Assembly (NCBI RefSeq): GCF_001570405.1
Contig: NZ_BBYM01000038.1
Coordinates: 1 to 64,000, forward strand
Reading direction: 5' to 3'
Source of the DNA: Microtetraspora niveoalba
Lineage (GTDB): Bacteria > Actinomycetota > Actinomycetes > Streptosporangiales > Streptosporangiaceae
DNA: 64,000 nt
Shown: positions 200-15,600 of the stretch, one piece after another
Position numbering within the stretch: position 1 is the first letter of the stretch
How the letters are laid out: each line of letters starts with the position of its first letter
The notes under the pieces: generated by a model
Databases searched by the model: none
What the model saw: the letters and a program-made list of their open reading frames with translations, nothing else
Told to the model about the DNA's origin: nothing
Translations under genes and position numbers: made by a program

Positions 200-229
200 T
201 TGATCTGAACTAGTTGATCATGTGATACT
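200..229 (+). promoter_or_regulatory. Candidate promoter for the terpenoid operon
   Basis: TTGATC (200-205) and GATACT (224-229) are separated by 18 bp inside the only AT-rich patch upstream of the P450 gene. This resembles a housekeeping sigma factor promoter and would give a 5' leader of about 240 nt. Inferred from consensus only. Confidence 0.35.
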
Positions 230-475: not shown

Positions 476-1831
476 ATGTCAACCAGTGTGGCCGAGGTGG
501 CCCGCGAGCCGAGGATGCTTCCCTTCTACCGCTCGCTGACACGTCACGCGCGCAGCCCCATCCTGGCCTTCGAGGAGGCCGGGCAAGCGGCCAACGGTGA
601 GCTCGTCCGCCTCAACATGGGGCCGTTCAAGCCGTATCTGGTGACGCATCCCGAGCACGTCCAGCACATCCTGCGCCTCAACTGGTCGAACTACGTGCGC
701 GAGGGCATGTTCTGGGACCCGCTGAAGCCGCTGATCGGCGACAGCATCCTCTCGGACGGAGAGGGCTGGCAGGAGAGCCGCAAGATCCTTCAGCCGCTGT
801 TCACCGCCAAGTACGTGGACTCGCTCGCGGAGCGCATGGCCGAGATCCTCACGGAGCAGATCGAGGAGACGATCCGGCCCGGAGAGCGCTTCAACGTCGT
901 CACCGCGATCTCCCAGATCGTGCACCCGACGATCGTCCGGCTCTTCTTCGGTGACAAGATCTCTCGCGAGGACATCGCCCAGCTCGTCCCCGCGTACGAC
1001 ACGGCCGTGACGTCGAAGGCGATCCGGCTGGTCCTGCCGTTCGTCCCGGGCAAGTTCCCGCTGCCCGGGGACAAGGCGTTCGAGCGCTCGGTCAAGACGA
1101 TCAACGACGTCGCGTACGCGCGCATCAAGGAGATCCGCAGCCAGCCCAACGAGGACCGGGACGTCGTCTCGTTCGTCTGCCGGGCGCGAAACGACGAGAT
1201 CGGGGACGTCGGCGCGAAGAAGATCCGCGACGACATCGTCTCCATGCACGGCGCCTCCACGGAGACCTCGGCGACCGCGCTCACCTGGGTGTGGGTCGCG
1301 CTGGACGCCCACCCCGAGGTCGCGGCGCGCGTCTACGAGGAGGTCGACCGCGTGGTCGGGGGCGACCCGATCAGCCCGGCGCACCTGCCGGAGCTGCGCT
1401 ACCTCCGGATGTTCCTCAACGAGCTGCTCCGCCTCTATCCGGCGGGCTGGCTCCTGCCGCGCATGGCGGTCAAGGACGACGTCATCGGCGGAACCGCCGT
1501 CAAGGCAGGCTCGACCGTGATGATCAGCTCCTACCTGACACACCGGCTGCCGGAGTTCTGGGATCGGCCGCTCGAGTTCGACCCCGAGCGGTTCGCACCC
1601 GAGAACGAGGAGCGGCGGAACCGCTACGCGTACTTCCCCTTCGGCGGCGGGCCGCACCAGTGCCTCGGGCAGCACCTGTTCATGATGGAGGCCCTGCTCC
1701 TCGTCGGGGGCATCCTGAGCAGGTTCCGTCCCGTCGTCCACACGTCGGTGCCGGTCACGCCACGGCTGGCCTCGTCGCTACGGCCGAACCAGAACTTCGA
1801 GATGTCTCTCGTACCGGTCGAGCGCGCCTGA
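476..1831 (+). CDS. Cytochrome P450 of the diterpenoid locus
   Basis: Haem-thiolate monooxygenase of 451 aa. The I-helix oxygen-activation motif is GASTETSA, the ExxR motif is ELLR at about E316-R319, and the haem loop FGGGPHQCLG places the ligand cysteine near C396, so all catalytic landmarks are intact. I chose the ATG at 476 because GGGAGAG sits just upstream; in-frame TTG (434) and ATG (449) codons lack a better ribosome site. The gene ends 3 bp before the class I terpene synthase, so co-transcription is very likely, and the inferred role is oxidation of the diterpene made by the next two enzymes. Actinobacterial P450s also accompany conservons (the cvnE genes of Streptomyces), and a conservon lies 3 kb downstream. 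Redox partners are not encoded nearby. Confidence 0.93.
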   Translation: MSTSVAEVAREPRMLPFYRSLTRHARSPILAFEEAGQAANGELVRLNMGPFKPYLVTHPEHVQHILRLNWSNYVREGMFWDPLKPLIGDSILSDGEGWQESRKILQPLFTAKYVDSLAERMAEILTEQIEETIRPGERFNVVTAISQIVHPTIVRLFFGDKISREDIAQLVPAYDTAVTSKAIRLVLPFVPGKFPLPGDKAFERSVKTINDVAYARIKEIRSQPNEDRDVVSFVCRARNDEIGDVGAKKIRDDIVSMHGASTETSATALTWVWVALDAHPEVAARVYEEVDRVVGGDPISPAHLPELRYLRMFLNELLRLYPAGWLLPRMAVKDDVIGGTAVKAGSTVMISSYLTHRLPEFWDRPLEFDPERFAPENEERRNRYAYFPFGGGPHQCLGQHLFMMEALLLVGGILSRFRPVVHTSVPVTPRLASSLRPNQNFEMSLVPVERA

Positions 1832-1834
1832 ACC

Positions 1835-2791
1835 ATGCACGTGCACCACCCCGGTACGACCGGAAAGACCGGCACCTCCTTCGAACGATTCACCGCCGCC
1901 TCCGACATGGGGAGGATCGCCGCACTCGCCGCCGCGGCCGGCCGCGACCTCCGCAAATGCGCGGAGTCCTACGACGACCTGTTCGGTGGCAAGCCGTTCG
2001 ACCCCGGCTTCTACGGCTCCCTGGCCCTCGTCGGCGCGTTCGGCTCCCCCTGGGCGACGGCGGACGAGCTGCGCATCGTCAACCGCGCAGCACTGTGGGT
2101 CTTCGCGGTCGACTGGCTGGTCGACGTGACGGCGAAGACCTCAGAGGACGTCGACACGATCGTCCGCGACTGCCTGGCCACGGCGGACGGCACTGTGGAC
2201 GGCACGGCGGACGGCACGGCGGGGCCGGCCACCCCGCTCACCCGGTTCCTCGCGGACATCAGGGACGACCTCGCGTCCGTGCCCGCCTTCGCGGCCGCGC
2301 GGCCGGTCTGGCGCGCGCAGCTCGAACGGATGTTGACCGCCATGGCCCGCGAATGGCGCTGGAACGACGCCAGGGAGAACGCCGGCGGGACCGGGCGGGT
2401 CCTGCCGGATCTGGAGGAGTACCTGGCGAACGCCGACGGCACCGGGTCCTCCTTCGTCAACGTCTCGCACTGGATCTTCACCGGCGACCCGTGGACGGTG
2501 TCCCACCTCGACGAGGTGATGGCGATCAGCGCGGAGGTCCAGCGGTATCTCCGGCTGCTGAACGATCTGGCCACGTACCGCAGGGACGTCGGCTGGGGAG
2601 ACGTGAACGTGCTGATGCTCGGCGTCGGCCGCGACGAGGTGTCGGAACGGATGGCAGAGCTCGCGGACCGTGCCGGAGAGCTGCTCGAACCGCTGCGGGA
2701 CGTGTGCCCGCGAACGGTCGCCTACCTGGAATGCCAGGTCGGCTTCAACACGGGGTTCTACGGCGGCGCCGATTATTGGGGCGAGATGTGA
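1835..2791 (+). CDS. Class I terpene synthase (probable diterpene synthase)
   Basis: A 318-aa protein with the length and helical pattern of bacterial class I terpene synthases, which ionise a prenyl diphosphate through a Mg2+ cluster. The second metal site is NDLATYRRD at 243-251, an NSE-type motif with Asp in place of the usual final Glu. The first metal site appears as DWLVD (93-97) rather than a classical DDxxD, which is unusual. A short DGT repeat (about 118-130) forms a surface insertion. Being wedged between a P450 and a class II cyclase, it most likely takes the cyclised diphosphate from the latter and removes diphosphate, as in two-enzyme labdane-type pathways. The substrate is inferred from context; a stand-alone sesquiterpene role cannot be excluded. 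Confidence 0.82.
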   Translation: MHVHHPGTTGKTGTSFERFTAASDMGRIAALAAAAGRDLRKCAESYDDLFGGKPFDPGFYGSLALVGAFGSPWATADELRIVNRAALWVFAVDWLVDVTAKTSEDVDTIVRDCLATADGTVDGTADGTAGPATPLTRFLADIRDDLASVPAFAAARPVWRAQLERMLTAMAREWRWNDARENAGGTGRVLPDLEEYLANADGTGSSFVNVSHWIFTGDPWTVSHLDEVMAISAEVQRYLRLLNDLATYRRDVGWGDVNVLMLGVGRDEVSERMAELADRAGELLEPLRDVCPRTVAYLECQVGFNTGFYGGADYWGEM

Positions 2792-4542
2792 GCATTGGCG
2801 ACCTGGTTGTTCCGGAAAGCGCGGAGGCCGTCGTCGCCGCCGCGGACGAGCTGATCGCCGGGCTGATGGCCCGGCCGTGGGGGCAGGTCTCCCCCTCGGT
2901 GTACGAGACGGGGCGGCTGGTGACGCTGGCTCCCTGGCTCGCGGGCCACGCCGAGCGTGTCGACTTCCTCGTCCGCGGCCAGAACGCGGACGGCACGTGG
3001 GGCGCGCCCGAGGGGTACGGCCTCGTCCCCACCCTCAGCGCCACCGAGGCGCTGCTGTCCGCGCTGCTGCGGGGCGACGTGGACTCCCGTCCGGAGGCGG
3101 CGGCCGAGGTGGCGGGCGCCGCGGACCGCGGGCTGCGGGCGCTCGCGGGCGCGCTCGGCGGCGCGCCGTCGGCGTCCGGCACGCCGGTGGACGTGTCCTC
3201 CCTCCCCGACATGCCGGCGCTGGACGTGATCGTCCCCGCGCTGGTCGCGGCGATCAACGAGCACCTCGACGCGCTCGACCGTGCTCCCGGGGGCGTCCCC
3301 GGAGCCGTGGTCGACTCCGCCGGCCTGCGGCTCGACCTGCCTCCCGGCATGGGCTCGAAGCGGCTCGCGGCGGTCCGCGCGCTGGTCGCCTCCGGCGCCG
3401 ACCTGCCCGAGAAGCTGGTGCACGCCCTGGAGATCGCGGGCGAAGCGGCGAGCGGGGCCGCGGCGGTCCGGCCCGCGGCGATCGGGACCGTCGGCGCCTC
3501 ACCGGCCGCCACCGCGGCCTGGCTGGGCGACCGCGGCCTGCTGGACACCACCGACCGCTCGCTGCGGCACCTGGAGGCGGTCGCGCGGCGGCACGGCGGG
3601 CCGGTTCCTGTGGGGCTCCCCATCACCGTGTTCGAACGCGGCTGGGTGCTGAGCTGGCTGGCCCGCGCCGGCATCCCCCTCGACGTGCCGCCGGAGATGA
3701 CGGCGGACCTCAGGGCCGCGATCGGGCCGTCGGGCACGCCGGCCGGTCCCGGCCTGCCGCCGGACGCCGACACGACCTCGGTCGCGCTGTACGCGCTGGC
3801 GCTGCTCGGCGTGCCGAGCGAGCCGGCCGGGCTGCGGGCGTTCGAGCTGGACACGCACTTCTGCACCTGGCCGGGCGAGGACGGGTTCTCGGTCAGCGTC
3901 AACGCCCACGTCCTGGACGCCTTCGGCCAGTACGCGCTCGCGTGCCCGGACCGCGCGGCCCGCTGTCTGCCGTACGTGCGGAAGTTGTCGGCTCTGGTGC
4001 GCGACCACCAGCGGCCGGACGGGAGCTGGGACGACCGGTGGCACGCCTCGCCGTACTACGCGACGGCGGCGTGCGCGCTCGCGCTGGGCGACTTCGGCGG
4101 CGAGGAGGCGGCGGACGCGGTACGGCGGGCCGTGCGGTGGGTCCTGTCCACCCAGCGGGCGGACGGGTCCTGGGGCCGATGGGAGGGGACGGCGGAGGAG
4201 ACCGCCTACGCCATGCAGATCCTGCTGCTCGCCCGCCCCCAGCGGGAGGCGGCGACCCACGGAGACGCACCCCCGGCGGCCCAGGGAGACGCGCCCCCGA
4301 CAGCCCACGGGGAGTCGGCCCGAACGGCTCAGGCCGGGGCGGTCCAGGCGGCGGAGGTCACCGAGGCGGCGGCGCGCGGTTACGCCTACCTGCTGGAATC
4401 CGCCGGCCAGGCCGAGGACCCGCCGCTCTGGCACGACAAGGACCTCTACCTTCCGGCGGCCATCGTGCGGGCGGCCGTGCTGGCGGCGCTGCACCTCGCC
4501 CAGACTGACCCAGTTGTTATGGAGTGGTACGGACAGTTATGA
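2788..4542 (+). CDS. Class II diterpene cyclase
   Basis: Protonation-initiated cyclase (584 aa) of the squalene-hopene/copalyl diphosphate synthase fold. The acid motif reads DADTT (326-330), the DxDT(T) variant of DxDD. I recall this variant from bacterial halimadienyl-type cyclases, but the product cannot be read from it. Three QW-like repeats are visible: QNADGTWG, QRPDGSWDDRW and QRADGSWGRW. The GTG start overlaps the stop of the class I synthase (GTGA) behind a GGGGCGAG ribosome site, indicating translational coupling. Near the C-terminus a low-complexity stretch rich in Ala, Pro and His interrupts the domain. The final sense codon (4537-4539) is TTA, rare in such genomes and read by the bldA tRNA in Streptomyces. 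No geranylgeranyl diphosphate synthase lies in the window, so substrate must come from elsewhere. Confidence 0.88.
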   Translation: MSIGDLVVPESAEAVVAAADELIAGLMARPWGQVSPSVYETGRLVTLAPWLAGHAERVDFLVRGQNADGTWGAPEGYGLVPTLSATEALLSALLRGDVDSRPEAAAEVAGAADRGLRALAGALGGAPSASGTPVDVSSLPDMPALDVIVPALVAAINEHLDALDRAPGGVPGAVVDSAGLRLDLPPGMGSKRLAAVRALVASGADLPEKLVHALEIAGEAASGAAAVRPAAIGTVGASPAATAAWLGDRGLLDTTDRSLRHLEAVARRHGGPVPVGLPITVFERGWVLSWLARAGIPLDVPPEMTADLRAAIGPSGTPAGPGLPPDADTTSVALYALALLGVPSEPAGLRAFELDTHFCTWPGEDGFSVSVNAHVLDAFGQYALACPDRAARCLPYVRKLSALVRDHQRPDGSWDDRWHASPYYATAACALALGDFGGEEAADAVRRAVRWVLSTQRADGSWGRWEGTAEETAYAMQILLLARPQREAATHGDAPPAAQGDAPPTAHGESARTAQAGAVQAAEVTEAAARGYAYLLESAGQAEDPPLWHDKDLYLPAAIVRAAVLAALHLAQTDPVVMEWYGQL

Positions 4543-4560
4543 TCTTGTTCGCCCGGGTCA

Positions 4561-4616
4561 AAGGTGACAAATCCTGACCTATTCGGACATTAGGTCTGTA
4601 AATGTATTGTCACCTT
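4561..4616. promoter_or_regulatory. Nested inverted repeats between cyclase and conservon
   Basis: Outer arms AAGGTGACAA (4561-4570) and TTGTCACCTT (4607-4616) are perfect 10-bp complements. Inside them GACCTA (4576-4581) and TAGGTC (4591-4596) pair perfectly around 9 nt. The element starts 18 bp after the cyclase stop and ends at a candidate -35 box. It may be a terminator, an operator for the conservon, or both; there is no T-tract. Confidence 0.5.
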
Positions 4617-4644
4617 GAGGGGATTTAATACCTTTTGCTAGGGT
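4615..4644 (+). promoter_or_regulatory. Candidate promoter for the conservon operon
   Basis: TTGAGG (4615-4620) and TAGGGT (4639-4644) with an 18-bp spacer sit at the downstream edge of the nested inverted repeat. This places the start near 4651 and leaves about a 110-nt leader before the CvnA ATG. Confidence 0.35.
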
Positions 4645-4760
4645 ACCCCGGGTGCGGCGCGGCAATATGGCGTGCCCATGTCGTGGCAGAGCAGGTGACA
4701 TTCCGGTTAATCACCGAGAAACATGCCGCGAGATTCTCCGATATTGCTGGACGGATATCA

Positions 4761-7226
4761 ATGCGCTTCCGCAATTCGCGTGTAAAGACCAAGGTCACGG
4801 CCTTGCTCGTGTCGCTCACGGCGCTGTGGGCGTTCGCGGCCTGGGTGACGCTGCGGGAGGGCGTGAACCTGCTCGGTGCCACCACGATCGACAGCAGCGT
4901 GGCCGAGCCGAGCGAGCCGCTGCTGCTCGAACTGCAGCGCGAGCGCCGGATGTCCGTCGCCCGGCTCGGCGGCTCCGCGACGTACTCGCGCCAGGAGTTG
5001 CAGGAGCAGCGGGCCCGCACCGACAGGGCCAAGGCGGAGTTCCAGAGCTCGGCCGACAGCGGCAGCGTCAGGTTCGCCGCCGACGACGCGCTGCAGGAAC
5101 GCATCCACGCCACCTTCGGCCAGCTCGACGGCCTGAAGGCCGCGCGCGCGGACGTCGACGCCGGACGCCTCAGCCGTGAGCAGGCCGAGGAGGTGTACAA
5201 CGACGTCGCGGACTCCTTCGCCGAGATGTACGAGTCGGTCGCGTCACTCGACGACGAGGGCATCGCCAAGGACGGCCGGCTGCTCGGCACGATGAGCCGC
5301 GGCCGCGAGATGCTCGCCCGCCAGGACGCGCTGCTCGCCGGCGTCTTCGCGGTCGGACGGTTCACCGAGGCGGACCACGCCCGGTTCGCGACCCTCGTCG
5401 GCGCCCAGCGCTACATCCTCGACCACACCGCGACCGGCCTGCGCGACGAGGACCGCGCCGCGTACGAGGCGTGGACCAAGAGCCGCGCGGTCACCGCCAT
5501 GCGCAACCTCGAAAACCAACTGCTCCAGGGCAGGCAGGTGGAGCGACCGCTCGCCGTCACCGACGCGCAGTGGCGCGCGGTGGCCGAACCCGCCCTCGCG
5601 AACCTCCAGAAGGTCGTCCTCGACGGCGGTGACCGGCTCGTCGAACGGGCGACGCCCATGGCGATCGGCGTCGTCCTGCGCCTGGTCCTCGCCGGCGTCC
5701 TCGGACTCTTCGCCGTCGTCGCGTCGATCATCCTGTCGATCACCACGGCCCGCGCCCTCGTCCAGCAACTGGAGAAGCTCCGCGACGCGGCGCTCGAACT
5801 CGCCCACGAGCGGCTGCCCAGCGTCGTCAACCGGCTCGGCCACGGCGAGAAGGTGGACGTCGCCGTCGAGGCGCCGCCCCTCCAGTTCGGCGGCGACGTC
5901 ATCGGCCAGGTCGGCCAGGCGTTCAACGCCGTCCAGGAGACCGCGATCCGCACCGCGGTCGAGGAAGCGGAGCTGCGGCAGAGCATCCGCGACATCCTGC
6001 TCAGCCTGGCCCGCCGCACCCAGTCGCTCGTCCACCGGCAGCTCACCCTGCTCGACGTCATGGAGCGGCGCGAGAACGACGAGGCCGAGCTGCGCGACCT
6101 GTTCCGCGTCGACCACCTCGCCACCCGCATGCGGCGCAACGCGGAGAACCTGATCGTCCTCTCCGGCGCGTCCCCCGCCCGCGCCTGGCGCCGCGCCGTC
6201 CCCATGGTCGACGTGGTACGCGGCGCGCTCGCCGAGGTCGAGGACTACACCCGGGTCACCGTGCTCCCGATGGGCGACGTCGAGCTGACGGGACGCGCGG
6301 TCGGCGACGTCATCCACCTGCTCGCCGAGCTGGTCGAGAACGCCGTGTCGTTCTCCCCGCCGTACACGATGGTGCAGGTGAGCGGGCAGGTCGTGGCCAA
6401 CGGGTACGCGATCGAGATCGAGGACCGCGGCCTCGGCATGAGCGAGGAGGACCTGGCCGCCGCCAACGAGCGGATCGCCGATCCTCCCGAATTCAACCTG
6501 TCCAGCACGGCCCGCCTCGGCCTCTACGTGGTCAGCAAGCTCGCCGAACGCCACAGCATCCGCGTGGTGCTCAAGAGCTCGCCGTACGGGGGGACGACCG
6601 CGATCGCCCTGCTTCCCCACGAGCTGATCGGCGACGGCATGAACCAGCAGACCCCGTCAGAGCCCACCGCCGCCGACCGGCCGGCCGGCGAGAACGCCTT
6701 CGGCGCGACACGCGACGACCAGGAGAACCCCTCGTTCCCCGTCTCGCGGATCGCGCTCGTGGGCGGACGCCAGCCGTCGGTCCAGGCGGTGCGCACGATC
6801 CCCGACCCCTCCGCCCCCTCCACCCAGGGACCGCCCGCCGGCACGCCGGGCCCGCACACCGGCCCTCTCACCGGACCTGTCACCGGGCCGCACACCGGCC
6901 CTCTCACCGGGCCCGCACACGATCCGCGACCGGAGCCGGAGCCGGAGCCGCTGCCGATGCGCCAGCCGCAGGGACCGCCTCCCGAGCCGGCCTTCACACC
7001 GTCCGGCCTGCCGTTCCGCGTGCCGCAGGCGAGCATCGCCCCGGCGCTGCGCGACGAGGCGCCGCCCACCGCGGCCGCCGTGGAGGAGGACGACGACGAC
7101 CGTTCCCCCGAGGAGATCCGTAAGATCATGGGCTCGTTCCAGAGCGGCACGCGGAGAGGCAGGTCCGACGCGTCCAGGCTGGTCGGCGAGGACACCGGCC
7201 CCTTCGACGACCGGCCGTCGGCGTGA
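4761..7226 (+). CDS. Conservon sensor kinase-like ATPase (CvnA family)
   Basis: Membrane-bound histidine kinase-like protein of 821 aa. A first transmembrane segment at about 12-31 is followed by an extracytoplasmic nitrate/nitrite-sensing-type helical domain and a second membrane segment at about 299-325. A HAMP-like linker and the segment around DHLATRMRRN come next, then an HATPase_c domain with N-box ELVENAVSFS (about 523), G1 EDRGLGM and G2 LGLYVVSKL. The last 180 residues are Pro/Gly-rich and disordered, with GPHTGPLTGP repeats. I chose ATG 4761 because GGACGG precedes it and a membrane anchor follows; an upstream TTG (4635) overlaps the putative promoter. Conservon proteins are known to form a membrane complex resembling eukaryotic G-protein signalling. 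Confidence 0.9.
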   Translation: MRFRNSRVKTKVTALLVSLTALWAFAAWVTLREGVNLLGATTIDSSVAEPSEPLLLELQRERRMSVARLGGSATYSRQELQEQRARTDRAKAEFQSSADSGSVRFAADDALQERIHATFGQLDGLKAARADVDAGRLSREQAEEVYNDVADSFAEMYESVASLDDEGIAKDGRLLGTMSRGREMLARQDALLAGVFAVGRFTEADHARFATLVGAQRYILDHTATGLRDEDRAAYEAWTKSRAVTAMRNLENQLLQGRQVERPLAVTDAQWRAVAEPALANLQKVVLDGGDRLVERATPMAIGVVLRLVLAGVLGLFAVVASIILSITTARALVQQLEKLRDAALELAHERLPSVVNRLGHGEKVDVAVEAPPLQFGGDVIGQVGQAFNAVQETAIRTAVEEAELRQSIRDILLSLARRTQSLVHRQLTLLDVMERRENDEAELRDLFRVDHLATRMRRNAENLIVLSGASPARAWRRAVPMVDVVRGALAEVEDYTRVTVLPMGDVELTGRAVGDVIHLLAELVENAVSFSPPYTMVQVSGQVVANGYAIEIEDRGLGMSEEDLAAANERIADPPEFNLSSTARLGLYVVSKLAERHSIRVVLKSSPYGGTTAIALLPHELIGDGMNQQTPSEPTAADRPAGENAFGATRDDQENPSFPVSRIALVGGRQPSVQAVRTIPDPSAPSTQGPPAGTPGPHTGPLTGPVTGPHTGPLTGPAHDPRPEPEPEPLPMRQPQGPPPEPAFTPSGLPFRVPQASIAPALRDEAPPTAAAVEEDDDDRSPEEIRKIMGSFQSGTRRGRSDASRLVGEDTGPFDDRPSA
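6852..6910. repeat. Tandem repeat within the CvnA C-terminus
   Basis: A 23-bp sequence is repeated exactly at 6852-6874 and 6888-6910, 36 bp apart. The period equals 12 codons, so it expands a GPHTGPLTGPVT-type peptide repeat without breaking the frame. Confidence 0.7.
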
Positions 7227-7272
7227 CCCCCCGCCCGTCAGCCGATCACCCCGCGGTTAAGGAGATCTCCCG

Positions 7273-7704
7273 GTGACGCAGAAGTCCAGTGCTTCCGCCG
7301 ACCTGGCCTGGTTGCTCGACGACCTGGTCGGTCGGGTGCGCGAAGCAGAGCACGGCATCGTCCTGTCCACGGACGGCCTGCTGATGGCGTCGTCCAAAGG
7401 ACTGGGCGTCGACGACGCCGAACACCTGTCCGCCGTGGCCGCCGGGGTGCAGAGCCTCGCCCGCGGCGCCAGCGAACGGTTCGGCGGAGGCGCGATCCGC
7501 CAGACCATCATCGAGATGAAGTCGGCCTACCTCATCGTCGGCGTGGCCGGTCCCGGCGCCTGCCTGGCCGTGCTGTGCTCGCAGGACGCCGACGTCGGCC
7601 TCGTGGCGTACGAGATGGCAATGCTCGTCGCCCGGGTCGGACAGTACCTGACCTCTCCCGCGCGATCCGCCGAACCCCCAGCCAGGAGTGAAGTGCCGCG
7701 ATGA
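7273..7704 (+). CDS. Roadblock/LC7 protein (CvnB family)
   Basis: Small cytoplasmic protein (143 aa) with a roadblock/LC7 fold. Such proteins partner the conservon ATPase and small GTPase and probably tune GTP hydrolysis. The domain spans about residues 8-125 and includes the family stretch GIVLSTDGLLMASS and a hydrophobic core around AYLIVGVAG; the tail is Pro/Ala-rich. The GTG start has an AAGGAGATC ribosome site. It follows CvnA by 46 bp, and its stop overlaps the CvnC start. Confidence 0.93.
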   Translation: MTQKSSASADLAWLLDDLVGRVREAEHGIVLSTDGLLMASSKGLGVDDAEHLSAVAAGVQSLARGASERFGGGAIRQTIIEMKSAYLIVGVAGPGACLAVLCSQDADVGLVAYEMAMLVARVGQYLTSPARSAEPPARSEVPR

Positions 7705-8084
7705 ACATGGAGCGAAGTCCCGGAGAGCACAACGAGGAGTGGCTGCTCGACGAGCCGATCGTGCGCCCGTACGTCATGACGCGCGGGCGCACGGACGCGA
7801 GGGGCAAGTTCGACCTCGTGACCATCGCGGTGACGATCCGCTCCACCACGGGAGCGGAGGTCGGCCTCGACCCCGAGCACCTCACCATCGCGAGGCTGTG
7901 CCGCAGGCCCCTGTCCGTGGCGGAGATCGCCGCCCACATGGACCTGCCCGCCGGGATCGTACGCGTGCTGCTCGGCGACCTGCTCGAAAAGGGCTTCGTC
8001 GCCGTACAGCAACCCCAATCGGAGACAGACGTGCTCGACGAGAGAACTTACAGGGCGGTGCTCGATGGCCTCCGGGCGCTCTGA
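7701..8084 (+). CDS. DUF742 protein (CvnC family)
   Basis: DUF742 protein of 127 aa, the third conservon component. The N-terminus carries the usual WLLDEPIVRPYVMTRGRT segment; the remainder resembles a winged helix (LCRRPLSVAEIAAHMDLP, then VRVLLGDLLEKGFV). In other conservons this protein binds the roadblock and GTPase subunits; its biochemical role is unknown. Start and stop both overlap neighbours: ATGA with CvnB and 20 bp with CvnD. Confidence 0.93.
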   Translation: MNMERSPGEHNEEWLLDEPIVRPYVMTRGRTDARGKFDLVTIAVTIRSTTGAEVGLDPEHLTIARLCRRPLSVAEIAAHMDLPAGIVRVLLGDLLEKGFVAVQQPQSETDVLDERTYRAVLDGLRAL

Positions 8085-8664
8085 GCAGCCCAAGCTGCCC
8101 AAGGCGATCAAGCTGTTGGTCGCGGGCGGCTTCGGAGTCGGAAAGACCACGATGGTGGGCGCCGTGTCGGAGATCCGGCCGCTGCGCACCGAGGAGACGC
8201 TCACCGACCGCAGCGTGGGCGTCGACGACCTGTCCGGAGTGGAGGCCAAGAGCACCACCACCGTGGCCATGGACTTCGGGCGCATCACCATCGGCGACGA
8301 GTACATGCTCTACCTGTTCGGCACGCCCGGCCAGGAGCGGTTCTGGTTCGTCTGGGACGAGCTCGCGCGCGGCGCGCTCGGCGCGGTGGTGCTCGCGGAC
8401 ACCCGCAGGCTCGCCGACTGCTTCCCCTCCGTGGACTACTTCGAGCGCAGGGGAACGCCGTTCGTCGTGGCGGTCAACTGCTTCGACGGCTCCCCGCGGT
8501 ACGACCTGGACGAGGTGAAGCTCGCGCTCAACCTCGGCTCCGAGGTCCCGGTGCTGCTGTGCGACGCGCGAAGGCGCGAGTCGGGCAAGGAAGTGCTGAT
8601 CAGGCTGATCGAGCACGCGTACAGCAGGCGCCCGGCGGCGGCCAAGGAGGTCTCGGCCCGCTGA
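8065..8664 (+). CDS. Small GTPase (CvnD family)
   Basis: GTP-binding protein (199 aa) of the MglA/CvnD-like branch of Ras-type GTPases. Visible motifs are the P-loop GGFGVGKTT (about 21-29), a TTTVAMDFG switch I segment, FGTPGQERFW for G3, and VNCFD for the guanine-specificity loop, which is the NxxD form common in this family. It is the presumed output switch of the conservon complex. The reading frame overlaps CvnC by 20 bp. No conservon-linked P450 follows directly; the nearest is the P450 at 476-1831 upstream. Confidence 0.94.
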   Translation: MASGRSEQPKLPKAIKLLVAGGFGVGKTTMVGAVSEIRPLRTEETLTDRSVGVDDLSGVEAKSTTTVAMDFGRITIGDEYMLYLFGTPGQERFWFVWDELARGALGAVVLADTRRLADCFPSVDYFERRGTPFVVAVNCFDGSPRYDLDEVKLALNLGSEVPVLLCDARRRESGKEVLIRLIEHAYSRRPAAAKEVSAR

Positions 8665-8860: not shown

Positions 8861-9961
8861 ATGAGCCGCCTGCGCGACATCCGCTGGAGCGACAGCCTGA
8901 GCTACGTCATCCCGCTGCTCGCGGTCGTGACGCTCGGGCTCACCTGGGGGCGCCTGCTGCCGCCCGTCGTGGTGGTCGTCGTCGCGTTGCTGCTGGCCGG
9001 GGCGGTGCTGTCCGCCGTCCACCACGCGGAGGTCGTCGCCCACCGGGTGGGCGAGCCGTTCGGGTCGCTCGTCCTCGCGGTGGCGGTGACCGTCATCGAG
9101 GTGGCGCTGATCGTCAGCATGATGTTGTCCGCGAAAGGCGGGGCGTCGTCGCTCGCCCGCGACACCGTCTTCGCCGCCGTCATGATCACCTGCAACGGCA
9201 TCGTCGGGCTCTCGCTGCTCTTCGCCACGCGGCGGCGGCGTGTCGCCGTGTTCAACGCCGGGGGCACCGGGAGCGCGCTCGCGTCCGTGGCGACCCTCGC
9301 CACGATGTGCCTGGTGCTGCCCACCTTCACCCCCACCACACCGGGACCCGCCTTCTCGCCGCCCCAGTTGTGGTTCGCCGCCGTCGCCTCGCTCGCGCTG
9401 TACGTGTTGTTCGTGGTCACCCAGACGATCCGGCACCGGCAGGCGTTCCTGCCGGTCACCGAGGCGGGCGAGGTCATCGACGCCGACGAGCACGAGCCGC
9501 CCTCGATGCGGCTGACGTCGGGCAGCCTCGTCCTGCTGCTGGTGGCGCTGGTCGCCGTCGTCGGCCTGGCCAAGGTGGAGTCGCCCGCGATCGAGGCGGC
9601 GGTGAGCGCGGCGGGGCTGCCGCAGTCGGTGGTGGGCGTCGTGATCGCGCTGCTGGTCCTGCTGCCGGAGACCATCGCCGCCGTACGGGCCGCCCAGCGG
9701 GGCCGGGTGCAGATCAGCCTCAATCTGGGGTTCGGCTCGGCCATGGCCAGCATCGGGCTGACCATCCCGACCATCGCCGTCGCCTCGACGTGGCTGGGCG
9801 GCAGGCTGCTGCTCGGACTCGGCTCGATGCAGATCGTGCTGCTGGCCCTCACGGTCGTCGTGGCCACCCTCACGGTCGTCCCCGGGCGGGCGACCCTGCT
9901 CCAGGCCGGTCTTCACCTGGTGCTGTTCGCCGCGTTCCTCTTCCTCGCGGTCAGCCCATGA
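8861..9961 (+). CDS. chaA: ChaA-like Ca2+(Na+)/H+ antiporter
   Basis: Integral membrane cation/proton exchanger (366 aa, about 11 membrane spans) of the CaCA superfamily. Two homologous halves each carry an acidic exchange motif: VTVIEVALIVSMML in the first and VLLPETIAAVRAA in the second. A hydrophilic loop at about residues 195-220 separates them. It extrudes Ca2+ or Na+/K+ in exchange for protons; the ion preference is not readable from sequence. The ATG start follows CCGCTGGGGGAGC, which contains GGGGGAG. It stands alone between the conservon and the convergent sugar operon, with a strong hairpin downstream. Confidence 0.85.
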   Translation: MSRLRDIRWSDSLSYVIPLLAVVTLGLTWGRLLPPVVVVVVALLLAGAVLSAVHHAEVVAHRVGEPFGSLVLAVAVTVIEVALIVSMMLSAKGGASSLARDTVFAAVMITCNGIVGLSLLFATRRRRVAVFNAGGTGSALASVATLATMCLVLPTFTPTTPGPAFSPPQLWFAAVASLALYVLFVVTQTIRHRQAFLPVTEAGEVIDADEHEPPSMRLTSGSLVLLLVALVAVVGLAKVESPAIEAAVSAAGLPQSVVGVVIALLVLLPETIAAVRAAQRGRVQISLNLGFGSAMASIGLTIPTIAVASTWLGGRLLLGLGSMQIVLLALTVVVATLTVVPGRATLLQAGLHLVLFAAFLFLAVSP

Positions 9962-9997
9962 CACACACGCGGCACCGGCGCCGTCAGGGCCCGGCGG

Positions 9998-10029
9998 CCG
10001 CCGCCGGCCCGTACGGGGGCCGGCGGCGG
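9998..10029. terminator. Bidirectional terminator hairpin
   Basis: Perfect 13-bp arms (9998-10010 and 10017-10029) flank a 6-nt loop between the convergent antiporter and SIS-domain genes. There is no T-run, as is usual in GC-rich actinomycetes. Confidence 0.7.
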
Positions 10030-10049
10030 TCAGCCGCGGAGAGGGGGCC

Positions 10050-10805
10050 TCAGAGGGAGCGGCCCTCGGCGGAGTGGAGGCGGCGGCGGTGGTCGGCGAA
10101 CACCTCGTCGTTCGACGACACCGTGGCGCCCGGGACCGTCGGCGAGACGAAGGTCGGCACCACGACGCCCCTGCCGGCCAGGACGGCCGCGGTCCGGGTC
10201 ACGATCTCGTGGCTGACCACGCAGGCCACCACCGTGGACGCGCCGCCGACCGGCCGGTCCCAGCCGTCCACCTCGACGATCGCGTCCTGCACGGGGACAC
10301 CGGTGTCCACGGTGATGTCGCAGATCTCGGCGATCCGCTGTCCCGAGGAGTGCTCGGCCGGGCGCTCCAGGTTGGCCACCGAGGTCACCGCGACCGTGAA
10401 CAGGCCGCGCTTGGCCGCGTACATGGCCGCCTCGACCGGGGCGGCGTTACGCCCGCCGTGGGAGTACACCACCATGACGTCACCGGCCGCGAGCGGCTCG
10501 TGGTCCAGGTATTGCTGGACGTAGCCCTCGGTGCGCTCCAGCCAGAGCAACTCGCGGACGCCCCCGGGCCCGAGCACGTTGTGCCACATCAGCCGGGGGT
10601 CGGTCAGCGGGTGCAGGCCGGCGAAGCTGCCGTAACGCGGGAAGGCGTCCATGGTGGGGATCACGGAGTGGCCGCTGCCGTACAGGTGGATCAGGCCGTC
10701 GTTCTGGATGGCGTCGGCGCAGCGCTCGGCCACCGTGTTCAACGCCTCGTCCTGGGTCGAGACGAGCCGATCAAGGATGTCGATCATGATCCGGGTGTAG
10801 CTCAC
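10050..10805 (-). CDS. SIS-domain sugar-phosphate-binding protein
   Basis: Cytoplasmic protein (251 aa) with a sugar isomerase (SIS) fold: an N-terminal helical region, then LIHLYGSGHSVI and VMVVYSHGGRNAAPVEAA as the phosphosugar-binding loops. It resembles the UPF0309/SIS group rather than classical MurQ etherase. The GTG at 10805 was chosen because AGGAAGGAAG lies just upstream; the in-frame extension to 10898 has no ribosome site. It is the last gene of a six-gene sugar operon, so it probably processes or binds the phosphorylated sugar made by the ROK kinase. An amino sugar is a reasonable guess, but no deacetylase or deaminase is present. Confidence 0.82.
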   Translation of the reverse strand: MSYTRIMIDILDRLVSTQDEALNTVAERCADAIQNDGLIHLYGSGHSVIPTMDAFPRYGSFAGLHPLTDPRLMWHNVLGPGGVRELLWLERTEGYVQQYLDHEPLAAGDVMVVYSHGGRNAAPVEAAMYAAKRGLFTVAVTSVANLERPAEHSSGQRIAEICDITVDTGVPVQDAIVEVDGWDRPVGGASTVVACVVSHEIVTRTAAVLAGRGVVVPTFVSPTVPGATVSSNDEVFADHRRRLHSAEGRSL

Positions 10806-10894
10806 AGGCTTCCTTCCTGCGGGGCGCGTCACGGGATGCGCGCCGTCGACTCGTGGGGTGTTGACTCGTGGGGACGCGTCCCCACGGAGGTGGG

Positions 10895-11635
10895 TCACGG
10901 GTTGCGCAGCGCCAGCCGCACGCGGTACCGGTCACCGCGCATCACGCTGCGGACGTACTCGAAAGGGCCGTGGGCGTCGAAGGTGAGCCGTTCGACGTAG
11001 AACGCGTGGGCTCCGGGGGTGACGCCCAGGGTCGTCGCGTCCTCGTCCAGCACCCCGCCGACCGTGAACGTCTCGATCGCCTCGCGCGGCACCAGCCCGT
11101 ACGTGTCCTTGAGGACCTGGTAGAGCGACCGGTCGGTGAAGTCCAGCTCGGCGATGCCGGGGAACCGTTCGAGGGGGAGCAGGGCCGTCTGCACGCCGAC
11201 CGGGCGGGAGCCGTCGGTCCTGAGCCGCCGCAGGCGGAGCACCGGCGCGTCCGGAGGCAACGCCATCTCGGGCGGCAGCGCGGCCTCCTCCGCCGTGACG
11301 ACGTCCTGTTCGAGCACCCGCCCACCCGATGTGTGCCCGAGGTCGGCCAGCTCCGCGGTGAAGGACGTGACGCCCCTCGCCCCGGCGGTCAGGCTGGTGT
11401 CGCGGACGAAGGTGCCCCGGCCCTGCTCGCGGACGAGCGCGCCGCGATCGACCAGCCGGGCGAGCGCCTGCCGGACCGTGACCCGGCTGACGCCGTACGC
11501 CTTGCCGAGCTCCTCCTCGGTGGGCAGCCGCCCTCCGGCCCGCCACTCGCCCTCGTCGATCCGCTGCTGCAGGTCTCGCTCGACCTGGAGGTAGAGCGGG
11601 ACTCCCGAGGTGGGATCCAGCGCCTTCACGATCAT
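10895..11635 (-). CDS. GntR/HutC-type transcriptional regulator (UTRA domain)
   Basis: Regulator of 246 aa. An N-terminal winged helix (about 12-75) has the GntR recognition segment GVSRVTVRQALARLVDRGALV, followed by the hinge REQGRGTFV. A UTRA effector-binding domain (about 95-240) ends with the typical EYVRSVMRGDRYR strand. HutC/DasR-like proteins sense phosphorylated sugars, which fits its place after the ROK kinase (4-bp overlap) in the ABC operon. It probably autoregulates the operon; a repeat cluster upstream of the binding-protein gene is the candidate operator. Confidence 0.9.
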   Translation of the reverse strand: MIVKALDPTSGVPLYLQVERDLQQRIDEGEWRAGGRLPTEEELGKAYGVSRVTVRQALARLVDRGALVREQGRGTFVRDTSLTAGARGVTSFTAELADLGHTSGGRVLEQDVVTAEEAALPPEMALPPDAPVLRLRRLRTDGSRPVGVQTALLPLERFPGIAELDFTDRSLYQVLKDTYGLVPREAIETFTVGGVLDEDATTLGVTPGAHAFYVERLTFDAHGPFEYVRSVMRGDRYRVRLALRNP

Positions 11636-12486
11636 TCTTTCTCCAATCGCGCGGTCAGGAGCGCGCCCACGACCCCGGCACGTGATCCGAGCTCCGCCGC
11701 GCGCACCGGGACCCCGGCCCCGTCAGGAGAGGCGAAGCGCGCGACGTGGCGGTCCAGGAGCGGGCCGAGGACGTCCATCGCGTCCGCGAGCCCGCCTCCG
11801 ATGAGGATCACATCGGGGTCGATCACGCTGGCCAGCGCCGCGACGCCGCGGGCCAGCCGTACGGCGTAGCGGTCGAGTTCGGCGGCGGCCGCCTCGTCGC
11901 CGCCGCGCGCGGCGGCCACGAGGGCGGGTCCTCCCGGCAGCGCCGATCCCGACGCGGCCAGCTCGAACGGCCCGTGCCCCGCGGCCTCACCCGGCGCGGC
12001 CGGGGACCCGGGCGCGGAGTCGGGCGTGGGCAGCCAGCCCCACGATCCCGCGCTGCCGTGCGCCCCGGACCAGATCCGGCCGTCCACCATGAGCGCGCCG
12101 CCGATGCCCGTGCCGACGGCCAGCAGCACGGCGGACCTCGCCCCCTTGGCCGCGCCCTCGGCCGCCTCGGCCAGCAGCGTGAGATGGCCGTCCAGGCCGA
12201 GCCGCACGCTCGCGCCGAGCAGCCGCTCCAGGTCCTCACGCAGTGGGCGGCCCTCGATCCAGGGCAGCGCGGGGACGAAGAGGGGCCGGTCGCCGTCGGA
12301 CGTGCCCGGAAGCCCCACCCCGACCCCGTCCGGCCGCCCGGCTTCCGCGCACAGGCCGGCGACCTGGTCGAGGAAGGCGTCGTACGAGCCCGCGACCGGG
12401 ACGGAGACGACCTCCCCCCGGCGACCGGCGGTTTCGGTCAGGACGCGGACGGAGGTTCCGCCCACGTCGATGCCGACGAAGATCAC
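11632..12486 (-). CDS. ROK-type sugar kinase
   Basis: Actin-like ATPase-fold kinase (284 aa). The N-terminal phosphate-1 loop is GIDVGGTSVRVL; the catalytic segment is RLGLDGHLTLLAEA, where ROK enzymes have DNDANxxALAE. The phosphate-2 loop is AVGTGIGGALMVDG, and an adenosine motif follows near the C-terminus (DVILIGGGLADA). The ROK zinc-binding Cys cluster is not visible, as in some N-acetylglucosamine/glucose kinases. The GTG start overlaps the permease stop (GTGA). It should phosphorylate the monosaccharide delivered or released by the adjacent ABC transporter. Confidence 0.85.
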   Translation of the reverse strand: MIFVGIDVGGTSVRVLTETAGRRGEVVSVPVAGSYDAFLDQVAGLCAEAGRPDGVGVGLPGTSDGDRPLFVPALPWIEGRPLREDLERLLGASVRLGLDGHLTLLAEAAEGAAKGARSAVLLAVGTGIGGALMVDGRIWSGAHGSAGSWGWLPTPDSAPGSPAAPGEAAGHGPFELAASGSALPGGPALVAAARGGDEAAAAELDRYAVRLARGVAALASVIDPDVILIGGGLADAMDVLGPLLDRHVARFASPDGAGVPVRAAELGSRAGVVGALLTARLEKE

Positions 12487-13307
12487 CCCTTCACCCCCGT
12501 CCGCGCCACGCTGCGGACGAACACGCGCTGCGCGAGCAGGAACACCAGCATGGTCGGCACGCTCGCGATCAGCGCCCCCGCCATGACGACGTTCTGGTAG
12601 CGCACGCTCGTGCTGTACGACAGCAGCCGGCTCAGCGCGAGGACCACCGGGAACTTGTCGTCGGACTGCAGGATCGACAGTGGCCACAGGAAGTTGTTCC
12701 AGTAGAAGACGAACGCGAAGATCGCGAGACTCACGACCGCCGGGCGCAGCAACGGCGTGATGACCCGCCACAGGATCCGCGCCTCCGAGGCGCCGTCCAT
12801 CCGGGCCGCGTCGATCAGCTCGTCGGGCACGTCCGCGATGAACTGCCGCATCAGGAAGATGCCGAACGCGTTGGCGAGCCACGGCAGCATCACGCCGAGG
12901 TAGGAGTCGGCCAGGCCCATCGTGGAGACCAGCCAGTAGAGCGGGACGAGGGTCACGATCGGCGGCAGGAACATCGTGGCGACGACCGCCCAGAACAGCA
13001 CCTCGCGTCCCCTGAAGCGGTACTTCGCGAAGACGTAGCCCGCCATCACGCTGGTGACCAGGACCGACACGGTGGACACGCCGGCGATCAGCACGCTGTT
13101 GAGGAACGCGCCGCCGAACGGGATGACCTGGAACACCTCGCCGAACGCCCCGAACGTCGGGTCGGCGGGGAACCAGGTCGGAGGGATCTTCTGCAGCTCC
13201 TCCGGCCCCTTGAGCGCCGAGATGACCATCCAGTAGAGAGGGAACAGCGGCACCAGGATGACCAGCGTGAACGCCAGTCCGGTCGCCACCCGTGCGACAC
13301 GCCTCAT
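12483..13307 (-). CDS. Carbohydrate ABC transporter permease (MalG type)
   Basis: Inner-membrane permease (274 aa, six predicted spans) of the CUT1 sugar ABC family. The cytoplasmic EAA loop reads ELIDAARMDGASEARILWRV, the site that docks the ATPase. The ATG has a GAGGAGGCGG ribosome site and overlaps the stop of the upstream permease (ATGA). No ATPase is encoded in the operon, so a shared MsiK-type ATPase encoded elsewhere is expected, as in other actinomycete sugar transporters. Confidence 0.94.
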   Translation of the reverse strand: MRRVARVATGLAFTLVILVPLFPLYWMVISALKGPEELQKIPPTWFPADPTFGAFGEVFQVIPFGGAFLNSVLIAGVSTVSVLVTSVMAGYVFAKYRFRGREVLFWAVVATMFLPPIVTLVPLYWLVSTMGLADSYLGVMLPWLANAFGIFLMRQFIADVPDELIDAARMDGASEARILWRVITPLLRPAVVSLAIFAFVFYWNNFLWPLSILQSDDKFPVVLALSRLLSYSTSVRYQNVVMAGALIASVPTMLVFLLAQRVFVRSVARTGVKG

Positions 13308-14239
13308 GACCGCCTCCTCATCGCGGCGAGAACGGCTCCGGCGACCGCGATCAGGACGAGGAGCAGGCTGAACGCCATCGCGCTCGCCTGTCCCGCCATG
13401 CCGTACTGGAAGGCGGAACGCTGGATGGCGAACGACAGCACCGTCGTGCTCTCCGCGGGCCCTCCCTGCGTGAGGATGTAGACCGGGTCGAAGACCTGGA
13501 TCGCGTTGATGATCGCGATCAGCACGATGAACGTCGTCGTACGGCGCAGCAGGGGCAGCGTGACGCTCACGGTCTGCCGCCAGAAGCCGGCGCCGTCGAT
13601 GCGGGCCGCCTCGTACAGGTCGAGGGGGATCTGGGTGAGCCCGGCGATGACGAGGATCGTGTAGTAGCCGATCATCTGCCACACGTGGAAGACCACCAGC
13701 GAGACCAGCGCCGTGCCCGGGTCGCTGAGCCAGGCCGGCGCGTCCAGTCCGACGGCCGCGAACGCCTGGGCGATCGGCCCGTAGTCGGGCGCGTACAGCG
13801 CTCCCCAGACGATCGCGATGGCGATGGCGGGCACGACGTACGTCGAGAACAGCGCCGCCCGGGCCAGGCCCTTGCCCGCGCTCTTCGGGAAGTAGAGCAG
13901 CATCCCGAGCGCGAGGGCGAGGGGGATCGTGACCACCAGGACGAGCAGCACGTAGATCGCGGTGTTGCGGAGGGCGGTGAAGAACTCCTGGCCGGCCAGC
14001 AGGTCCCGGTAGTTGCCGAGCCCCCGCCACGACATCTCCGAGAGCGGCGTGTACATCGACCAGTCGTGCAGGCTGATCCAGAACGTCAGCGCGATCGGCA
14101 CGGCGACGAACACGCCGATGACCGCCATGGCGGGCGACAGGAAGGCGATCGTCGCCGCCTTCCTGGACACCCCTCGGGCTCCCGCCCGCCGTCCGGACGC
14201 CGCCCGGACGGCGGGGGTGGAGCGGGTGCCGACCGTCAT
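13304..14239 (-). CDS. Carbohydrate ABC transporter permease (MalF type)
   Basis: Inner-membrane permease (311 aa, six spans) with a charged N-terminal tail of about 28 residues. The EAA loop DLYEAARIDGAGFWRQTVSV is followed by QVFDPVYILTQGGPAEST, a signature of MalF-type CUT1 subunits. It pairs with the MalG-type subunit to form the channel. Start ATG 14239 overlaps the binding-protein stop. Confidence 0.94.
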   Translation of the reverse strand: MTVGTRSTPAVRAASGRRAGARGVSRKAATIAFLSPAMAVIGVFVAVPIALTFWISLHDWSMYTPLSEMSWRGLGNYRDLLAGQEFFTALRNTAIYVLLVLVVTIPLALALGMLLYFPKSAGKGLARAALFSTYVVPAIAIAIVWGALYAPDYGPIAQAFAAVGLDAPAWLSDPGTALVSLVVFHVWQMIGYYTILVIAGLTQIPLDLYEAARIDGAGFWRQTVSVTLPLLRRTTTFIVLIAIINAIQVFDPVYILTQGGPAESTTVLSFAIQRSAFQYGMAGQASAMAFSLLLVLIAVAGAVLAAMRRRS

Positions 14240-15555: not shown

Positions 15556-15600
15556 GGGGGTTGCCTCCTCCCCGCTGCACGGCGCCGCTCTCGGACGGCG

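Follow-up and report, generated by a model that had tools for sequence, protein, structure and literature searches.

Diterpene biosynthesis genes and the sensor domain of an adjoining conservon switch together in actinobacteria: a candidate diterpenoid signal system

Many soil and marine actinobacteria carry three diterpene biosynthesis genes beside a four-gene G-protein set known as a conservon. One such locus lies at the start of the window analysed here (the whole stretch of 64,000 nucleotides from Microtetraspora niveoalba, contig NZ_BBYM01000038.1) and encodes a cytochrome P450, a class I and a class II diterpene cyclase, and the conservon proteins CvnA to CvnD. These seven genes form one evolutionary unit, the order of which is kept in two actinobacterial orders. 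Among close relatives, a block composed of the promoter, the P450, class I and class II genes, the following gap, and the first transmembrane helix (TM1) and NIT sensor domain of CvnA has been replaced in place, and the kinase half of CvnA and CvnB to CvnD have remained near-identical. As shown by computation, sensor and biosynthesis genes thus co-switch, though with exceptions. We think it fairly likely that the seven genes constitute a diterpenoid signal system, in which the NIT domain of CvnA would bind the diterpenoid made by the operon. The features on which the argument relies are as follows, in window coordinates.

200-229, plus strand: promoter-like element of the diterpene operon, TTGATC (200-205), 18-nucleotide spacer, GATACT (224-229)
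476-1831, plus strand: cytochrome P450, terpene-oxygenase-like (PF00067, 2.4e-73; FGGGPHQCLG and ExxR motifs present)
1835-2791, plus strand: class I diterpene cyclase, Sat1646-like (Terpene_syn_C_2, 6.1e-13; D93/D97 and the NSE motif N243-T247-D251 intact)
2788-4542, plus strand: class II diterpene cyclase, similar to copalyl diphosphate synthases, with a DADTT motif (SQHop_cyclase_C, 1.1e-14)
4543-4760, plus strand: gap of 218 bp between enzyme block and conservon
4615-4644, plus strand: promoter-like pattern in the gap, TTGAGG (4615-4620), 18-nucleotide spacer, TAGGGT (4639-4644), from a comparative search
4761-7226, plus strand: CvnA, with TM1, NIT sensor, second transmembrane helix (TM2), kinase-like half and long tail (NIT, 3e-40, and HATPase_c)
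4896-5660, plus strand: NIT sensor domain of CvnA, residues 46-300 (PF08376, 3e-40), which switches with the diterpene genes
5673-5738, plus strand: TM2 of CvnA, residues 305-326, the 3' edge of the switching block
7273-7704, plus strand: CvnB, roadblock/LC7 (PF03259, Robl_LC7, 9.3e-23)
7701-8084, plus strand: CvnC, DUF742 with a winged-helix segment (PF05331, 2.3e-33)
8065-8664, plus strand: CvnD, small GTPase (PF03029, ATP_bind_1, 7.1e-35; GGFGVGKTT)

Coordinates and Pfam matches agree with an earlier sequence-only reading of this DNA, in which a tight P450/class I/class II operon was followed after 218 bp, on the same strand, by a complete CvnA-D set. The draft genome measures 8.47 Mb, and the window begins at the first base of its contig C38, so that only 475 bp of sequence precede the P450 gene. 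The three enzyme genes are spaced by a few bases or overlap, and the metal-binding and acid motifs of both cyclases are intact. P450, class I and class II genes with intact catalytic motifs are what characterizes a labdane operon of the sat/terp1 type. The nearest solved structure to the class I cyclase is Sat1646 (E 6e-78), and that to the class II cyclase is ent-copalyl diphosphate synthase 5bp8 (E 7e-112). The best NCBIfam matches of the P450 are terpene oxygenases (albaflavenone, pentalenene), well below their cut-offs (215.6 bits for albaflavenone monooxygenase, the cut-off of which is 700). The four genes downstream display the gene order of conservons (AGPS), i.e., sensor-kinase-like, roadblock, DUF742 and small GTPase. 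The suggestion that the pathway borrows its substrate also fits: a search of the genome for prenyl diphosphate synthases (PF00348) returned six matches, five of them long, all located outside the unit.

The distribution of the unit was explored by seeking the class I gene in three genome sets. It is present in 165 of the 297 genomes of the same GTDB family, in 19 of 394 genomes drawn from the class (18 of the same family and one of the Micromonosporaceae), and in 86 of 250 genomes of the family Micromonosporaceae. The window and 140 loci picked by class I similarity, a non-random set, yielded 119 distinct loci after the removal of 22 of the 141 as duplicates. All seven genes stand in order in 85 of these 119. 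The sequence-only reading had hinged on this order being kept in other genomes, and on that count it stands, all the more as the order recurs in Micromonosporaceae and on a plasmid. In the complete loci, a median of 211 bp (quartiles 190-220, range 101-420) separates the class II gene from that of CvnA, and the remaining junctions have medians of -4 or -20. In 6 of the 119 loci the available sequence ends within CvnA, and 20 consist of class I and CvnD genes only (13 from Nonomuraea, the other seven from one genus group), which lie close together in 19 cases and about 5 kb apart in L135. L117 and L130 are devoid of P450 and retain class I, class II, CvnB-D and a mere stub of CvnA; the L117 stub (12611-13234) is the C-terminal tail without any Pfam match, and the L130 stub was judged by match length only. 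No CvnB match was found in L055 and L059, L138 lacks class II at a contig end, and L144 has the two cyclases only. L054 and L061 are split double loci, in which one strand carries class II, a short CvnA match and CvnB-D, and the other carries P450-class I and a full CvnA-D set, with a further class I homologue downstream.

Outside the unit, little is shared. When 18 query loci were compared with 72 others by the best-matching flanking open reading frame per kilobase bin, flank bins were matched on average in 0-27% of the other loci, with isolated values of 1.00, and the unit was matched in 100%; no generally conserved upstream gene emerged from this comparison in relatives with longer flanks. 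On a plasmid of Micromonospora zamorensis (L287, NZ_CP107937.1, 44152-52003), exactly the seven genes are inserted between unrelated ones. Genome G901 (L292), presumably a Salinispora, also has all seven genes, and its class I protein is 98% identical to Sat1646. That the neighbours have stayed together through shared ancestry only would agree with a CvnA tree that largely follows taxonomy, but is scarcely conceivable for a unit that is matched in all loci compared between such flanks, has a plasmid copy and spans two orders. Because its order is conserved across two orders with mostly unrelated flanks, the arrangement reflects more than chance, and the flank comparison rules out both chance and plain synteny.

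Eleven of 20 further Micromonosporaceae loci are complete and in order, although the class I gene of L278 and L286, among these eleven, has an in-frame stop. Of the others, L267-L269 lack only class II, L284 has its class I gene relocated behind CvnD, and L271-L273, from three genomes of a single Micromonosporaceae genus, hold apparently degenerate remnants of the unit; L275 and L285 represent other clusters. In L227 (11283-12377) and L228 (7627-8688), a different terpene synthase (Terpene_syn_C_2, 1e-21 and 4e-18) lies on the opposite strand between class II and CvnA, and the usual class I gene is absent; in L229, another terpene synthase (3.5e-20) lies beside P450, also on the opposite strand. 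In such loci the class I enzyme has been exchanged and the conservon retained.

The terpene-linked conservon is a dedicated one. In a tree of 45 terpene-linked CvnA proteins (from 43 of the 85 complete loci, L054 and L061) and 24 paralogues from six genomes, the terpene-linked proteins, including those of Micromonosporaceae, lie on one side of a branch with a support of 87 in the Shimodaira-Hasegawa-like approximate likelihood-ratio test (SH-aLRT), the tree having been built by a quick method with long-branch warnings for some paralogues. CvnA paralogues come from six plus six genomes, G138 being common to both sets. In the genome of the window, contig C48 (5898-12226) carries two further CvnA genes, convergent and about 2 kb apart; the same convergent arrangement occurs in G061 (C16), G038 (C21) and G118 (C38).

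Association between sensor and enzymes was quantified by distance analysis of 83 of the 85 complete loci, L108 and L151 being dropped for odd open reading frame lengths. Hereafter TSI and TSII designate the class I and class II cyclases, NIT the sensor domain of CvnA and KIN its kinase half. Given the rest of the conservon, the partial correlation of NIT is 0.64 with P450, 0.42 with TSI and 0.56 with TSII (Mantel, 0 of 500 permutations each), its strongest partner being P450, the gene farthest from it. The corresponding values for KIN are 0.09, 0.08 and 0.01 (14, 30 and 210 of 500 permutations). Such co-variation between cytosolic enzymes and a sensor domain outside the membrane is most readily accounted for by a diffusible product, and argues against scaffolding.

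Two proposals of the sequence-only reading lose their footing here, namely that the P450 is an accessory protein of the CvnE type and that the conservon scaffolds the terpene enzymes. Both are very improbable. P450s are indeed known accessory proteins of some conservons, but cvnE/F genes go with CvnA proteins devoid of a NIT sensor (PMC13343842). Here CvnA carries a NIT domain, and the P450 is the first gene of the unit, ahead of the cyclases and not behind CvnD, with matches that resemble terpene oxygenases; the comparison is one of gene position, CvnA domains and NCBIfam matches, not of CvnE sequences. As for a scaffold, it is the NIT domain, flanked by the two membrane helices of CvnA, that varies with the enzymes, and the cytosolic kinase half hardly does so. 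The broader idea of a conservon tied to the diterpene genes as one unit holds, and control of the diterpene pathway by the conservon is possible.

Co-switching is most apparent among loci with near-identical cores. Across 202 such pairs, which are not independent, the Spearman correlation is 0.87 for NIT-P450 and 0.14 for KIN-P450, and NIT identity ranges from 28 to 93% in pairs with a core identity of at least 88%. Between Microbispora amethystogenes L129 and its relative L081 (core 98% identical), for instance, identities are 97 for KIN, 99 for CvnB, 99 for CvnC and 98 for CvnD, against 51 for P450, 57 for TSI, 66 for TSII and 48 for NIT. Thirteen pairs, chosen because they are swapped (L107, L084 and L097 are each used twice), share nucleotide identities of 60-67% for P450, 55-64% for NIT, 91-98% for KIN, 92-98% for CvnD and 80-98% for the CvnA tail; the profiles of 11 same-type pairs show no divergent block. 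A scan limited to CvnA residues 230-399 puts the change-point of all 13 chosen pairs at 299-309, where TM2 begins. Residues 346-400 are 95% identical in swapped and 94% in same-type pairs. Flanks at least 90% identical upstream in 7 of 13 swapped pairs and downstream in 7 of 12 indicate replacement in place in those pairs. Misassembly is an unlikely cause, since G138 and G167, among the swapped genomes, are single contigs.

Types were also assigned by same/different lines (P450 64, TSI 66, TSII 76.5, NIT 62) that were set after earlier identities were known. By these lines, 131 of the 202 close pairs differ in all four components, 32 agree in all four and 39 are mixed; no pair keeps its NIT type with P450 or TSI changed. 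When the NIT and P450 lines were varied, at most 1 of 110 pairs kept NIT with P450 changed, and up to 11 showed the reverse. For 32 disjoint closest pairs taken regardless of type, P450 and TSI are the same in all 11 NIT-same pairs and TSII in nine, and in the 21 NIT-different pairs P450 differs in 17, TSI in 17 and TSII in 21 (Fisher p 1.1e-5 for P450 and TSI, 2e-6 for TSII). Adjusted Rand indices are mixed, with 0.65 for TSI-NIT against 0.33 for TSI-KIN and 0.70 for TSII-NIT against 0.17 for TSII-KIN, but 0.33 for P450-NIT against 0.32 for P450-KIN; single linkage at one threshold, joining P450 types, is the suspected cause of the weak P450-NIT value.

NIT domains of other conservons behave differently. 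Across three swapped genome pairs, these domains are 87-98% identical in 10 of 10 reciprocal-best pairs, and the linked NIT domains 42-47%; two looser pairs from the same genomes give 76-84% and 44-49%, respectively. This control left out CvnA paralogues beyond five per genome, non-reciprocal matches, KIN of 75% or less, and L223, from which no reading frame was obtained. The explanation that NIT is merely fast-evolving was rejected on the stability of these other NIT domains and of the CvnA tail in the swapped pairs. Tree topologies are consistent with exchange, as NIT and P450 trees share one discordance. The core tree unites Microtetraspora, M. malaysiensis included, in one clade (100/100), and this clade is rejected by both NIT (approximately unbiased test, p-AU 9e-7) and P450 (p-AU 9e-65), in trees of 20 rows built by a quick method, the group having been named after the identities were seen. 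In both trees, Microbispora L103 and its relative L084 are the neighbours of M. malaysiensis, and Sphaerimonospora L094 and L074 those of Microbispora L104/L106/L113.

The switching block is preceded by a conserved element. The 14-mer GATCATGTGATACT occupies positions 216-229 within the promoter-like element, and may be part of a promoter or operator. Its 13-mer core occurs within 500 bp upstream of P450 in 58 of the 85 complete loci with at most one mismatch and in 67 with at most two, compared to 0.15 of 85 in shuffled controls (at most two mismatches). With at most one mismatch allowed, the 14-mer itself is single-copy in the draft genome of the window, and gives 57 hits upstream of P450 and none elsewhere in the 1.68 Mb of the 85 loci. 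The element is kept in the swapped M. malaysiensis locus. A 14-mer match (at most two mismatches) also lies shortly before the class I start in 9 of the 20 class I-CvnD loci, positions in minus-strand loci having been converted by hand.

In the gap, the promoter-like pattern, written after enriched k-mers were known, occurs in 67 of the 85 complete loci (0.25 in shuffles). Given this conservation, enzyme block and conservon may be transcribed separately. A sigma-70 scan of 4500-4800 predicted two sites, neither of which is the conserved gap pattern. Three copies of AGGTGACA also lie in the gap (window 4561-4616 and 4693-4700), two of them forming a perfect 10-bp inverted repeat. This repeat, AAGGTGACAA/TTGTCACCTT, was considered as an operator and dropped, as AGGTGACA occurs in only 3 of 85 gaps.

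NIT domains are known nitrate sensors. The model of the CvnA N-terminus (mean predicted local distance difference test score, pLDDT, 84) matches the NIT domain of NasR (4akk) with a Z score of 28.2 over 276 residues and 20% identity. In NasR, nitrate is clamped by the arginines R49 and R236. Like NasR, CvnA has retained the sensor fold and the first of these arginines; unlike it, the CvnA sensor is membrane-anchored and hypervariable, and the position of the second arginine is not invariant: in an approximate mapping, residue 248 is Arg in 54 of 83 sequences and residue 249 is mostly Ala, Ser or Thr.

The main rival to a diterpenoid signal is hitch-hiking: the conservon would regulate the diterpene operon on an unrelated cue (nitrate, host or neighbour molecules), and NIT would be carried along when the diterpene block recombines, the kinase half being the first well-conserved stretch available for strand exchange. 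We hold this to be unlikely, yet it draws on several facts. The sensor has a nitrate-sensor fold, the gap contains a conserved promoter-like pattern, and cvn8 of Streptomyces coelicolor represses an adjacent lanthipeptide cluster (PMC8510531). Moreover, P450, TSI, TSII and NIT are contiguous, and one recombination tract could move NIT without selection. Further observations count against a diterpenoid ligand or temper the co-switching. Arg62, the counterpart of the first nitrate arginine of NasR in the alignment, does not vary (83 of 83). The partial correlation of CvnC with TSII reaches 0.24 (0 of 500 permutations), and weak associations exist for KIN-P450, as given above, and for CvnD-TSII (0.09, 20 of 500). 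Of the 202 close pairs, 30 differ in NIT type with P450 and/or TSI still scored as the same type, and among the 41 NIT-same pairs nine agree in P450 and TSI but have TSII under the line. The 14-mer GATCATGTGATACT (at most two mismatches) is not found upstream of P450 in 22 of the 85 loci, including all nine Micromonosporaceae, and is absent from 26 further Micromonosporaceae loci. Finally, L294 has P450-TSI-TSII, and no conservon was found within its 20-kb stretch. Against hitch-hiking, none of the 202 close pairs keeps its NIT type with P450 or TSI changed, even though the gap and TM1 intervene; the gene that correlates best with NIT is the farthest from it, which is not decisive as rates differ; all 13 chosen pairs have the 3' edge at TM2 and none has it further into the better-conserved kinase (residues 230-399 scanned); and the other NIT domains compared are stable.

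Another rival is product feedback or self-protection, in which the diterpenoid is an antagonist and NIT tunes its synthesis or tolerance in the producer, without any cell-cell signalling. It likewise predicts co-switching of NIT with biosynthesis, and it agrees with the absence of a full-length sensor wherever P450 is absent: among the 119 loci, CvnA has at least 500 residues in 96 of 96 loci with P450 (truncated ones included) and in 0 of 23 without it, an association that reflects few independent events and is broken by L294, outside the 119. Signalling and feedback are hard to tell apart by sequence, but no candidate transporter or resistance gene is generally conserved in the flanks, and we deem this alternative quite improbable.

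The product of the class I enzyme probably differs from isopimaradiene, because Tyr183 of the catalytic Tyr183/Tyr288 dyad of Sat1646 (PMC9814573) is replaced by Thr203; in the alignment Tyr288 is kept, as Y309, and the dyad of an isopimara-8,15-diene synthase is therefore incomplete. Position 203 is itself variable among the 85 complete loci (F 29, L 19, Y 10, C 10, T 8, other 9). All 20 class I-CvnD loci encode Gly as the first NSE residue, where all 85 complete loci have Asn, and they have lost the C-terminal DYWG; the L112 homologue (locus 9977-11648) still matches Terpene_syn_C_2 (3.6e-9). Several genomes carry such a pair beside a separate full seven-gene unit, e.g., those of Nonomuraea solani (L127/L147) and N. 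cypriaca (L132/L101). Judging from these substitutions, the Asn-to-Gly homologues would be non-catalytic, and possibly ligand-binding, partners of CvnD.

The CvnC model (mean pLDDT 73) includes a winged helix (window 7872-8009), with secondary matches to HTH_IclR (22.5 bits, cut-off 22) and MarR_2 (24.7, cut-off 27). Foldseek gave no E value under 0.001 (best 2.5e-3) and returned chains of GATOR1/SEA complexes as much as regulators. GATOR1 and SEA complexes regulate GTPases. A DNA-binding output through CvnC is no more than a possibility, the modelled winged helix being only weakly matched. Beyond CvnD, the window continues with a ChaA-like calcium/proton antiporter (8861-9961), then, on the minus strand (10050-15580, translations read by eye), genes resembling those for a SIS-domain protein, a GntR regulator, a sugar kinase and a sugar transporter of the ATP-binding cassette (ABC) type.

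The diterpenoid signal system we favour could operate as follows. By homology to the sat/terp1 enzymes, the class II cyclase would make a copalyl-type diphosphate out of geranylgeranyl diphosphate (GGPP) supplied by the rest of the cell, and the class I cyclase would turn it into a tricyclic diterpene to be hydroxylated by the P450. The oxidised diterpene would leave the cell and be bound outside the membrane by the NIT domain of CvnA, from where the signal would travel via the kinase half to CvnB/CvnC and the GTPase CvnD. Among the targets is probably the promoter of the operon itself, with its 14-bp element. Signal and receptor would be exchanged together as a cassette, as in ComQXPA pherotypes and agr. 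The fuller proposition, of terpenoid pheromone pherotypes in two orders, with in-place cassette exchange and the presumably dead cyclase of Nonomuraea perhaps serving as an intracellular diterpenoid receptor, could equally well prove right or wrong.

What conservons sense is a long-standing question, and the available portion of PMC13343842 shows no ligand for any CvnA NIT domain. In the present unit, the sensor is accompanied by the probable biosynthesis genes of its ligand, and nature has already produced matched and mismatched sensor/enzyme pairs by swapping, which makes the question directly testable. If true, this would provide the first ligand class for conservons, terpenoids would have to be counted among the chemical classes that serve bacteria as signals, and a Ras-like GTPase cascade among their receivers. 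Cryptic bacterial diterpenes, e.g., those of Salinispora sat/terp1, would likewise gain a role. No prior account of a link between conservons and terpenes, or of such a link between diterpenes and quorum sensing, was found in the titles and beginnings of abstracts of the papers listed in a literature search, outside of which lay subscription papers such as the original terp1 report.

Besides NasR, three known systems frame this proposal. Polymorphic quorum sensing is known from agr of Staphylococcus and from ComQXPA of Bacillus, in both of which the sensor half of the kinase varies with the signal-making genes. The same can be said here of NIT and the diterpene genes: biosynthesis genes adjoin a putative receptor gene, and they co-vary with the sensor domain, with exceptions, next to a conserved kinase half. 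Joint switching of signal synthesis and receptor is the hallmark of agr and ComQXPA, and a polymorphic signal/receptor pair is the reading it suggests. Differences are that the signal would be a diterpenoid and not a peptide, that the downstream system is a small-GTPase one, and that related types occur in different genera; the comQXP region is itself described as highly polymorphic (PMC12935306). Compared with conservons such as cvn8 of S. coelicolor, the unit has the identical order of CvnA with NIT and HATPase, roadblock CvnB, DUF742 CvnC and GTPase CvnD (PMC8510531 and PMC13343842), and cvn8 also borders a biosynthetic cluster (PMC8510531). It differs in having no CvnE/CvnF accessory after CvnD, in the diterpene operon linked to it in most loci found via the class I gene, and in a hypervariable sensor domain co-switching with that operon. 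Finally, the Salinispora sat/terp1 operon (Sat1646/SaDTS, SaCPS and CYP1051A1; isopimara-8,15-dien-19-ol) encodes the same three enzyme classes, and its copy in G901 is likewise followed by CvnA-D, a conservon of which the accessible part of PMC9814573 makes no mention; with Thr203 here in place of Tyr183 of Sat1646, the unit of M. niveoalba probably makes a different product.

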